64,000 bases of DNA from positions 2,480,001 to 2,544,000 of the forward strand of contig JASSKH010000010.1 in NCBI GenBank assembly GCA_031763025.1. The letters run 5' to 3'. Every line of letters starts with the position of its first letter. Within the stretch, counting starts at the first letter, position 1. Below are positions 37,413 through 61,400 of this stretch, one piece after another. Below the pieces are notes generated by a model. It was not told the origin of the DNA. It did no database searches and was given only the letters and a program-made list of their open reading frames with translations. The translations under genes and the position numbers were made by a program. The DNA comes from Macrocystis pyrifera. Taxonomy: Eukaryota > Sar > Phaeophyceae > Laminariales > Laminariaceae.

Positions 37413-40400
37413 GTAAGGAGGCATGCTACTGCTGTGGGGGGGGGGGGGGGGGGGTACTCATTATCATGCATGGCCGTAGTCGTTTGACCATAGACCCTCG
37501 TATCCCTACAAGGCCGGGACGGAGCGTGTCGGGTTATCACCGACCAGGCAGACATTGCTTGCACCAAGCGCGAAGCGAACCATGAGGTGTTGGGCGAGTC
37601 GCATGGAGGGTGAGCCGCATCCTACTGAGAACCGCTTTTGAGGCGGGTTTTCTTGCATATGGATGACGGCGTCAATGACTTGATTTATTTTCTGCAGTTG
37701 GGGGGGGGGGGGTGTACTCGATAGTAGAGATGTACTCGATCTCATGCATGGCCGTAGTCGTATGACCACAGACTCTTGCATCCCTACAATGCCGGGACGG
37801 AGCGTGTCGGGTTTTCACCGACCAGGCAGACATTGCTTGCATGGGGGGGGGGGGGTGTACTCGATATCGTGCATGGCCGTAGTGGCATGGCCATAGACCC
37901 TCGCATCCCTGCAATGTCGGGACGGAGGACATCGGGGGGGGGGTGTACTCATATGCCCGTGCATGACCGTAGTCGCACGCATGACCATAGGCCTTCGCAC
38001 CGCTATGAGGGAGGGAGGGGGGTGTGTGTACCCATGTCATGCATGGCTGTAGCCGTATGGCCATTGACCCTCGCATCCAAGCAATGCCGCACAGTAAGGA
38101 GCACAATGGGTTTTCACCGACCAAGCAGGCATGGCTTGGGGCGGGGGCGGGGGGCCGGGGGGGGTTGAGGGCAAGGGGGCCGGGGGAGGGTTGTTCAGTG
38201 CGCGTTCGGCATGATTCTCGTGTTGTGCTGTTAGTTGTTGCTGATTCTGATGCTGTTGTTGCTGCGATTGGGATAGTGCCCGTGCAGGTATCTAGAGTTG
38301 AGACTGGGAGAAGGAAGGGTAAGGCAAGAAGAAGGTGAGGGGGAAAACATGGGAGGAGGTACCACTAGCAGCAAGGCAAGAAGTGCTTCAGTAGATGCAA
38401 CATGCAACAACATGGAAGATGGGTAGTCGTGAGAGAGGCAAGGCGCGCGTTAACCCTGAGTCAATCCAATTCTGATTTTGATTTTATGTGGCAGATGGAA
38501 AAACGTAACGCAGGCCCCCAATGTTGGAGGTGCTTCTTTTGACATTAGGAGTAGGAACGGTGCTCCGTCTCGAAAGGGGTGCGAGGTTAATGGTCATACA
38601 CCTACGCCTATGCACGACATGAGTACACCCCCCCGCCCCACCCCCCCATCTCCCCCCTCTTCCTCCCTGTGAGCCCTTGCTGTCAGTGATTGCGCCGCGC
38701 GCCCCCCCCCCCCCCCTCCCCTCCCTGCCTTCGTTTAAACCCTTACTGACATGTATCACGCCGCGCGATCCCCCGCTCCTCCGTCCCCGCCCCCGACTCG
38801 TCTGTTTTACTACTGCGCTCGTTTCGCCACGCCTCCAGGAACACGAAAACCGTTTCTGGACGACGGTGGCGTTTTGTTTCTCGGGAGCGCTCGTGTTCGT
38901 GCACGACAGTCCCGTCGCGCTCGGGCAGTGGTCTCCAGTCCTAGGGTTCCTGTTCGTCATGATGTTCACGTTTTCGGTGCACAGCTACGACAGACAGGTG
39001 AAGGGAAGAGAGACGTTTTTTTTTTGTTGTGCTGCCGGGAGGGGGGAGGGGGGTGTACTCCTGTCATGCATGGCTTTAGTCGGTGGGGGGGGGGGGGTGG
39101 GAGGGGGGGGGGGGGGGGGGGGGGTGTACTCGATAGGAGAGATGTACTCGATCTCATGCATGGCCGTAGTCGTATGACCATAGATCCTCGCATCCCTACA
39201 ATGCCGGGACGGAGCTTTAGTCAGGTTTTCACCGACCAGGCAGACATTGCTTGCACCAAGCGCGAAGCGCCGTGAGGTGTCCAGCGAGTCGCATGAAGGG
39301 TGAGCTGCATCCTGCTAAGAACCGCTTGTGAGGCGGACTTGCATATGGATGACAGCTTCAATGAGTTAGTTTAATTTCCGGTGTGGCCACTTCCAGAGAC
39401 AGCAATGGGAGTACTATGTAACTGCCTCTTGGGTGCCGTACCTTGAACACTACGTGATACGACCAATTCCCTTGTGCAGAGTAAAGGTTCTTTACTTCGC
39501 ACAAATGATCTAACTAGACGACCAGCTGTGGGCGACCGCCAAACAAAAAACGGTACCCTGGATGTCTAGCTCACGTAGTGAGCGGCATGTTTTACAGTGT
39601 CGTTGCCAACCGACGCCAACCCAACCCATATCTAATATATGGTCGGGGGGGGGGTACTCATGGTCATTTTTTGCCGTAGTCGTAGTACCACAGACCGTAG
39701 ACCCTCGCATCCCTCCATACAGTGCCGGGACGGAGCCGCATCGGGTGTTTCACCGACCAGACAGACATGTGCTTGCTTGTTTCAAGCGCGAAGCGCCATG
39801 TGAGGAAGGGTGGGCTGCATCCTTCTGAGAAACGGTTGCGAGGCAGACTTTCTTGCATATGGATGACAGCGTCGAATGAACTGGGAAGGCGGGAAGGGGG
39901 GGGGGTCCCCTAGGCAGTTAGTTGGCTCCCCGTCCTTGGGCTCCTTTTTGTCATGCTGTTCACCTTTTCGATGCCCAGCTACAGGCGATAGAGGCGTTTT
40001 TGTTTTGTGCTGTGGGGTGCCCTCCCAGGGGTTAAAAATACGCCTCATCAACCGGGGATACAGCGCGCCCCCTCCCTGAGTACCCCCCCCCCTCCCCGGC
40101 ACAAAGCAGAGGCCTTCTTCACCTTCCTATCGTAGTTGTGCACCGAAAACGTCAAAACCATTCCCTATCCCGGGGGGAGGGGGGGGGGGAGGGGGAGAGA
40201 TGTCCCCTGATATTATGGCGTGTTTTTCTCGAGGCGGCAGTGCGGTGCGAAGGCGTGCGGGATGGGGGCGGGGGCGGGCGAGCGAGGGGGGGGCGCGGGG
40301 GGTGGATTGTTTGGAGTGTGTGGAACCAAACCTCGATAGGCACCTCTCTGCTTTATTGTTGTTGCTGTTGTTCTGGCACCAGTAGGCCAAAATCGCAACT

Positions 40401-58400: not shown

Positions 58401-61400
58401 CTTCTGGTGGTGCTGCTGCTGGTGCTGCGGGTGAGGGTGGGATTGGACAGCGAGGTGGCGGTGCGGCAGGCCTAGCGCGTCCCGTGTCAAAGAGCACCCT
58501 GAACGCCGCAGGCCATAGCACGGGACGCGGCGGCCGCAGGAAGCGGCTGCCGCTGCAGCAGGGGGCGGGCGGGGAGGACGAGGAGGACGACGACGACGAC
58601 GACGACGACGACGATGACGACGAGGAGGAGGACGATGACGATGAGGGGGATGGGAGTCCCAGCGGTGGCGTCGGCGGCGAGGCTTTCTCGCCTGGACGGG
58701 AGGAGGGTCAGCTCGTGCCTTGGGAGGAGGGAACCTGGCCAAATCCGGTAAGGATGGACCTATTCATGACATATGCGCGTTGAAGCCGTGGCGCTGACTT
58801 TTGTCTCGCGTTTCATCCCCTCCGCCTCTCTTGTCTCTCCAAGCGAGCCTTCCTTCCCACTAGTGTAACTGTTGCCTTTCGGAGCGCCCCCCCTCCCCTG
58901 TCTCGCCCTCCTTCCACCCCCCCCCCCCCCCCCCCCCCGCCCTCTCTCTCTTCGAGGCCTCAAGCGTTCCGAACTCGGCTCATAACACGCCATTGCCACC
59001 CCCTGATTCTCTTTCGCGTCTTCACCTCGCTGTCGTCGTCCCCCCCTTCTCCCTCTTCTTCACCCCCCCCGCCCCCCCTGTCGTCCATATTCAAGAAAAA
59101 AAGCACGGCCGAGATGCCGAAATCTGTCTCACAAGCGGTTCTTAGTTTATATAAGATGCAACGCACCCTTCATGCGACTGACTCTCTTTGAAAACCTCAC
59201 GTGTTGCTTCGCGATTGGTGCAAGCAATGCTCCTACCCTTGTCCGTGAAAACCCGACATGCGGTATTGTAGGGATGCGGGGGGGTCTATGGTCACACGGC
59301 TACGGCCGTGGTTGACATGGGCACCCCTTACCCCCAATCCCCCCCTCTCTCTCTCCCCTTCCCCCCCCCCCCCTCCTTCACCCTCCACTGCGACTCTCTT
59401 TGCCGCGCCCCCCCATCCCCGCCGACGCCGACGCTTCAGCTCCTTTTCCTACGTCGCCCCCGCCGGTGGCAGTCTCACCCCCCCCCTCACCCTCGCCTCC
59501 CCGCTGACCCGAGACAGGGTCTTGCCGGGTCCGGAAATTCGCCGATAGCGCAGGAAGAAGAGTCCATGGCGGCAACAGCGGCGAAAGTTTTGGCGGCGAC
59601 CGTGCCGGGCTCAATGGCCGTGCGGGCGTACCTGCAGCTCTCCTCGCTGAAGAAGGCTCCGCTGGAGGTGACGACCGGATTTTTTTTGTTTTTCACGCGT
59701 GGCCAATACAAGGGCTGAAGGGTTATACTGTAATGCACCGACCGGTGTTATTGTATCAAATTGCTCGAAAAAATGATTTAGAAAGAGCAACATCAGCCGT
59801 GATATACCACTATTGTGCGTGAATACGTATAGAGATCGTTTATACATTAATATGAAGACGAAGCGGTCCTTACGTTTCCACCCAGGGAGGTGGAGGATTT
59901 CGTGGAAAGGTTTTTTTTTTGCAAGCTCTGTGTGTGATACGTCGATCGCGCGCACTACGTAGTGCCAGGCCAGGTATTTTTTTATTTATTTATTTTTTTT
60001 TCAGGGCCCGTACGTCCATTTTTTTCACGTACGTACGTATGATGATTGGTTACTGTTTTGAGAAAAAGGGAGCACAACAAGGACGACTCCGGAGGGAATC
60101 CCGGACGTACGTAGCAGTCCTTTTGTGCGGGGGGCGGGTCAATGTGTGTACTTGGTACTACTGCTGTGTCCGTAAATTGAAGGATGGTTTGCATATTCTT
60201 TGGTATACGGTCCTTACTTTCCAGGACAAGGTGGGGCCAGGTATGTTAGCATTTTTTTTGTTAAAAACTGATTTGCTTACAAAACATTGTGGTTTCGGCT
60301 GCGGCGATTGCCACCCAGTTTTTTTGTGTACATCGCGATTACCCAAGTTTCGATGCTCACACACAGCTCTGCTACTGATTTTACGTATATACGACAAACG
60401 GTTATACACAGCTCCAGTATTGATAGGTCGGTTCCAGGACGGTGTCGCCCATGATAGGTTTATCGCTCGGGTTTACCGACAGGTCGACGCAGGAATTACA
60501 CCGCCTCCGTTGTTAGGAACTCTCGATGATTCACACCCGCTCCACTTACACCCCTACCCCTGCCGCCGCCGCTACTGCCGCTGCCTCCTCCTCTTCCTCC
60601 GCCCACACCACCACCACCACAAACATCACCAACAACGACACCCACCACCACCACCACCGCCACCACCATCGCCATAACCACCACCGCCACCCCACCATCA
60701 CTCCCATCCACAACACCAACACCAACACCACTACCACTACCGATACCGACTACCACCATCACTAACCACGACCACCACGACCACCACCGCCACCACTGCT
60801 ACCACCACCACCACCACCACCACCACCACCGCCTCCAAGGTTAAGAAAGTGAACTACAAGGACGAGTCGGACGAGCCTAAGTCGGGCAGGCTGTCCTCCA
60901 GGCTGAGCATCTTCAGAGGGGGGCAAGACGCGGGGTCGTCCGGCACCAGATCCCCGGCCAAGGTGTTGGTCTCTAAGGGCATGGTCGTGCAAACGTTTAT
61001 GGGGCCGGCGACCGTGAGAAACGTCCGTTCTGAGGATGGCATGAGCGAGGTGAGCCTTGTGAACGTTTTCACACGTCGGACACATAGATGATCTACAGAT
61101 TCTATAGATCATCTACAGATCATATATAGATCACCTACAGATAATATAGATCTACGAATCAGATAGATCATGTACATATCATATATCATCTACAGATCAT
61201 ACAGATCATGTACAGGTCATATAGATCCTCTATATACCATATAGATGATCTACAGATAATATTGATCATCTACATATCATATATATCATCCACAGATCAT
61301 ATATATCGTCTGCAAATCTTAAAAGATCATCTACACATCATGATCTGCCGTTATGAGCTGTTGTGCAGGGCCTGTGTAGTACAGATCCAACCCTAGGAAA

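Follow-up and report, generated by a model that had tools for sequence, protein, structure and literature searches.

Genes and Repeat Copies in the Window

A dispersed repeat headed by a run of G, occurring as two families (A and B), was analyzed in a window of 64,000 nt of the giant kelp Macrocystis pyrifera (contig JASSKH010000010.1) and in further loci of the same assembly, which comprises 537,376,219 bases in 223 contigs; the published N50 of the giant kelp assembly is 13,669,674 bases (PMC10498591). All coordinates refer to this window, the whole stretch of DNA analyzed. Two modelled genes host copies of the repeat. The first, on the + strand (37225..64000), was assigned to the APP1-type phosphatases on a Pfam match that is only sub-threshold (20.8 bits, cut-off 27.1); its exons E1-E19 were placed by hand, the start of E1 is unsettled and E19 (from 63954) leaves the window. 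The second, UBC9, lies on the - strand, and its exons were placed from PDB sequence matches and by reading.

Copies were detected in eight of the 18 phosphatase introns (1, 2, 3, 6, 8, 11, 14 and 15) and in none of the other ten. According to the exon models, sense copies follow the donors of introns 1, 2, 3, 6 and 11, and antisense copies precede the acceptors of introns 1, 8, 14 and 15 and the last acceptor of UBC9, in agreement with the initial annotation of this DNA. In particular, the donor of intron 1 is followed by a cluster (37436..38138, +) of G-run-headed A copies from 37454, 37713, 37856 and 38027 with a short head at 37945, all sense, and that of intron 2 by a cluster (39048..39879, +) with the full-length A copy used as query (39125-39640) and a diverged copy from 39654. 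The donor side of intron 3 (41616..41939, +) consists of a G-tract containing a B copy at 41648-41711 plus a truncated A copy (head at 41786, body to 41831), after which comes a G-run of 107 nt (41833-41939), i.e., the element lies within a G-tract. The intron 6 donor cluster (44969..45591, +) comprises A copies at 44986-45127, 45151-45454 and 45456-45559 with G-runs around them, and at the intron 11 donor (51256..51439, +) an A copy (51275-51376), 26 nt from the donor, is followed by a degraded B. On the acceptor sides, all antisense (- strand), intron 1 carries a copy scoring best as B (38564..38634), 213 nt from the acceptor; intron 8 (47610..47786) two B copies (47610-47776) with a C-run of 33 nt between them; intron 14 (57230..57400) an A copy (57290-57389) at 48 nt plus one B; and intron 15 (59120..59373) a diverged A copy (59120-59318) 200 nt away.

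The last intron of UBC9 harbors four A copies and one B (7662-7742) within 6921..7796 (+), with the C-run end facing the exon at 6807 and with G-runs of up to 95 nt (7486-7580). The same intron contains a head-less A copy (8036..8560, +; copy 8036-8529), whose body end is 188 nt from the donor at 8707 and beyond whose far end a same-strand G-run follows directly (8539-8560). Another A copy lies just past the UBC9 stop codon (6603..6681, -), its G-run end facing the exon, and a truncated A copy (20509..20567, +) is situated outside both modelled genes. Besides the runs of 95 and 107 nt, a further very long G/C homopolymer occurs at 6124-6199 (76 nt).

Structure and Affinities of the Element

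The architecture reported in the initial annotation is present: on the strand read there, the repeat consists of a G-tract, (T)GTACTC, a short spacer, CATGCATGGCCGTAG and a longer body, and on the opposite strand family A ends in ...GAGTAC(A) against a C-run. Aligned long copies give a family A body of about 520 bp, and in copies from nine of the 30 fetched loci, several of them near-duplicates, the match ends at query position 515-516. One 29-mer of family A has 7,130 exact matches genome-wide (3,621 forward and 3,509 reverse). The longest A copies agree with one another at both termini. Once duplicates had been removed a first time, the window and fetched loci together yielded 106 A and 30 B copies. 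The GTACTC end, i.e., the 3' end or head, is kept in 93 of the 106 A copies, and the far ends are spread over query positions 48-516, most copies being shortened there. Because of this shared GTACTC end and the variable far ends, the pattern is that of a 5'-truncated retroposon, and the traits of a short interspersed element (SINE), namely small size, dispersal, high copy number, variable 5' truncation and a common 3' end, are present. Family A appears to be a high-copy, 5'-truncating, SINE-like retroposon of the non-long terminal repeat (non-LTR) type, with its RNA read opposite to the strand given above. A full-length copy of about 520 bp is too short for a reverse transcriptase and endonuclease, so the enzymes would come from elsewhere. 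Family B differs from A in its body, resembles it by eye at the 3' end and has the same tract preference; it is possibly mobilised by the same machinery.

No tRNA was recognised by ARAGORN in five copies. The Rfam scan returned nothing at gathering score in the window, and a lenient scan of two long copies returned only sub-threshold, unrelated families; these scans thus revealed no RNA polymerase III-type head (tRNA, 7SL or 5S). An 18-mer of the element had five matches in prokaryote genomes, which is about chance by our estimate, and none in viral contigs.

Orientation Relative to Splice Sites

Most copies sharing one intron form clusters, and therefore intron ends, not copies, were taken as the independent units. 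Of the 11 copies in the window that are nearest to a splice site and no more than 250 nt away from it, ten point their G/C-run end at the exon, the matched element starting 26-128 nt after the donor or ending 48-213 nt before the acceptor. The ten copies for which the initial annotation claimed a fixed orientation ("ten of ten") do face the exon, and the count has to be corrected to ten of 11, the sole exception being the head-less UBC9 copy (8036-8529), which turns its body end toward the donor at 8707.

A separate sample of kinase-exon loci was picked by Pfam match alone, ignoring the element (the 30 best-scoring and 40 others of 136 matches). In 60 of these loci the nearest element faces the exon in 10/11 cases at up to 150 nt and in 9/16 cases beyond 400 nt. 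Ten further loci, counted only in the kinase total and kept outside the splice-site table and the density and miniature inverted-repeat transposable element (MITE) counts given below, showed four of four facing at up to 250 nt and one (L104) facing away at 264 nt. The kinase total at up to 250 nt is thus 14/15 facing (binomial p = 0.001), and that of window and kinase loci combined 24/26 (p = 1e-5). The first 30 kinase loci include tandem paralogs, and L054 overlaps L062, so that some far elements were counted twice; at L097 the scored acceptor falls inside the element and the start of the kinase match was used in its place, and L102, a head-less body piece, was scored as facing from its direction.

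The splice-site table comprises 151 sites from the window genes and the 60 kinase loci, low-scoring sites having been dropped, among them L069 (facing) and L070 (away), which are nevertheless retained in the 14/15. The nearest element faces the exon at 12/12 sites at 0-100 nt and 7/8 at 100-250 nt; the corresponding values are 0/4 at 250-500 nt, 6/13 at 500-1000 nt and 7/16 beyond, together 13/33 past 250 nt. Both near exceptions, the UBC9 copy and L070, are fragments without a head.

Association with G and C Tracts

For a strict recount, near-duplicate loci and split and overlapping matches were excluded, and loci L006-L035 were included because they bear the element. On the head side, the 20 nt preceding the match contain at least 10 G in 83 of the 98 distinct copies that bear a head, and at least 10 C in none of them. 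On the far side, 34 of 57 distinct isolated head-bearing A copies have a same-strand G-run (at least 6 within 40 nt) and none has a C-run, with 3.2% of random 40-mers holding such a G-run; for distinct isolated full-length A copies the far-end G-run is present in five of six, and for isolated B copies in nine of 17, with one C-run. The window and kinase loci alone give far-end G-runs in 17/31 A and 5/13 B copies and no C-run. Neighbors no more than 120 nt apart, both head-bearing, are in the same orientation in 22 cases and in opposite orientation in none. Looser earlier counts were 43/69 for isolated A, 12/22 for B and 26:0 for neighbors. A preference for a single type of repeat and a single direction of insertion, a trait of target-specific non-LTR retroelements, is thus seen at the head, at the far end and between neighbors; with a homopolymer as target, a target-site duplication is not definable. 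The UBC9 copy at 8036-8529 breaks the splice-site rule and fits the tract rule, because a same-strand G-run lies past its far end.

Tracts of the same polarity accompany splice sites that have no element nearby. The longest run of at least 6 within 100 nt of such sites is of C at 22 acceptors and of G at one, and of G at 11 donors and of C at three (Fisher p 5e-6). In element-free flanks, C and G make up 33% and 19%, respectively, before 50 acceptors, and 21% and 31% after 49 donors; dinucleotide shuffling of the flanks preserves runs and is therefore uninformative as a control. In the window, a C-tract without detected element precedes the acceptor of intron 9 (49243..49286, +), and others lie at 55093, 55135 and 56220. 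The paralogous kinase exons L050 and L055 share the same G-rich donor flank, and at the identical place and in the same direction one carries a B copy and the other an A copy.

Enrichment Near Splice Sites

Element clusters in the 60 kinase loci reach 0.54 per kb at up to 150 nt from predicted splice sites versus 0.13 elsewhere (4.1-fold), and free tracts 2.22 versus 0.76 per kb (2.9-fold); the two enrichments do not differ significantly (Fisher p 0.50). The suggestion of the initial annotation that the element inserts near exon borders is supported by this cluster density. The vicinity of splice sites is usually expected to be poor in mobile elements, and a palindromic MITE (GGGGGACCATAGTAAATAGGACC...) present in the same loci matches this expectation: only one of its 29 copies, which are spread over 21 of the 60 kinase loci, lies within 150 nt of a splice site (0.05 versus 0.19 per kb). 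Since the MITE is not enriched, nearness to splice sites is not shared by the repeats of these introns in general. In the window the MITE occurs at 40824-40920, 42841-42930, 53650-53756 and 56605-56720.

Proposed Explanation and Alternatives

Taken together, these data make it likely that the element is a non-autonomous, non-LTR-type retroposon family which targets poly-G/poly-C tracts and piles up near splice sites in a fixed direction without making introns. Its orientation is probably set by the strand that bears the G. Kelp introns carry G-tracts after donors and C-tracts before acceptors, as seen element-free in the sample, so that copies homing to these tracts would come to lie no more than 250 nt from a splice site, the G/C-run end directed to the exon. 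Insertion may proceed by target-primed reverse transcription, the 3' end of a nicked G-tract priming on the element RNA, with enzymes supplied by a putative long interspersed element (LINE). Later copies would re-enter the same tract and build head-to-tail clusters, for which the same-orientation neighbors (22:0) are the expected outcome, and splicing would tolerate an insertion when part of the tract remains beside the exon.

Several observations weigh against this explanation. Exon edges were scored by a home-made splice-site method and some are unreliable; 23 of the 57 isolated A copies lack a far-end G-run, and in 15 of the 98 head-bearing copies no G-rich sequence precedes the head. The away-facing elements at 250-500 nt (0/4 facing) and at L104 do not follow the orientation rule, which chance or the next exon may explain. 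Element-free C-runs, in gene sense, also occur soon after donors (9890-9912 and 56459-56474), opposite to the G bias. The comparison of cluster density with that of free tracts is of low power with ten near clusters. No empty site was found among paralogous introns. The element-free tracts could be remnants of the element, so the precedence of the tracts is unproven.

That last point is shared with the idea that the tracts were made by the element. If its RNA had a long C tail, free tracts would be very short copies consisting mostly of tail, and the element itself would have spread the splice-side tracts; the runs of 95 and 107 nt adjoining window copies and the many copies of only 50-90 nt agree with this. 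Free tracts of at least 8 nt, however, outnumber element clusters by 156 to 30 in the 60 loci, a tail does not account for the far-end G-runs of full-length copies, and a reason for landing near exons would still be needed, which makes this origin improbable. Marginally better placed, although also improbable, is a filter by selection, under which copies would land anywhere and in either direction and only those in splice-helpful orientation would survive near exons. Splicing is aided by G-runs near donors and by pyrimidine tracts at acceptors, and 24 of the 26 near copies have a direction compatible with this. Purging, however, can reduce density near exons and cannot lift it 4.1-fold, the unrelated MITE is sparse there, and orientation already tracks the tract. 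Since the strand of the G/C tract sets the direction and free tracts share the same bias, the selection for splice-helpful orientation proposed in the initial annotation is not needed to explain the direction of the copies, although selection may maintain the tracts.

The introner-like behavior also raised there, in which the element would make introns by bringing splice sites, draws on its high copy number and its closeness to splice sites, and fails because the splice sites lie outside the element, 26-213 nt beyond the match at those ten intron ends in the window where the copy faces the exon. The host introns, of 0.57-2.5 kb, contain mostly truncated copies amid other sequence, the two intron ends carry opposite orientations, and more than half of the phosphatase introns (ten of 18) have no detected copy; an introner origin can practically be dismissed. 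Chance combined with the picking of copies nearest to a splice site is scarcely more credible: the independent units in the window are few and clusters inflate the counts, but the separate kinase-exon sample repeats the orientation (14/15, p = 0.001).

An extension of tract targeting, which we put forward tentatively and consider rather doubtful, is that the G/C tracts beside splice sites provide a genomic safe haven. Retroposon machinery specialised on the homopolymers that mark intron ends would leave a working tract by the exon at each insertion and add new tract sequence, so that splice signals and intron length would be shaped by the element and its host introns acting on each other.

Relation to Known Systems

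The commonest single family in Ectocarpus, RTEX-N1_Ec32, is non-autonomous, measures about 600 bp and is linked to RTE-X LINEs (PMC12477816). The kelp element, likened to it by description and not by sequence, shares with it a brown algal host, a similar length, thousands of copies and an obscure source of the 5' part, and RTEX-N1_Ec32 is grouped with LINE-dependent elements; it differs in that neither G-tract targeting nor splice-site orientation appears for RTEX-N1_Ec32 in the parts of that paper covered (PMC12477816). Intronic transposable elements of Ectocarpus are described in the same parts as shorter and more divergent than intergenic ones (PMC12477816). Insertion into simple repeats has a parallel in target-specific non-LTR elements that use microsatellites, such as Togen in (TG)n and some HERO families, from which, as portrayed in the sections covered, the kelp element differs by its G homopolymer target, often beside splice sites, and by being short and non-autonomous (PMC4640811). 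With introners, as far as the portion covered describes them, it has in common that it is an intron-associated mobile element of high copy number, but it supplies no splice sites and the introns extend beyond it (PMC9860276).

Literature searches found nothing that joins introners with brown algae, or G-runs with C-rich tracts, from which we make no wider claim of unpublished status. By title and abstract, nothing on this subject was found among the matches for poly-C with non-LTR retrotransposons, or for SINE with microsatellite and insertion preference, and nothing relevant on Waldo-type targeting was found among the matches listed.

An element enriched near splice sites with a direction set by its tract illustrates that target choice can mimic selection or introner behavior. 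The element offers a natural test of how the G and C tracts of intron ends arise, grow and work, and it suggests one possible way in which kelp introns lengthen.

Other Features of the Window

In the exon models, phosphatase introns 7, 10 and 12 (46491, 49426 and 53535, respectively) appear to have GC instead of GT donors. Intron 12 also contains a tandem hexamer/dodecamer array (54049-54371; GGTAAG-like) rich in donor-like motifs. Finally, large overlapping open reading frames occupy 14745-20222 on the + strand, which by eye we take to resemble a DIRS/tyrosine-recombinase retroelement.

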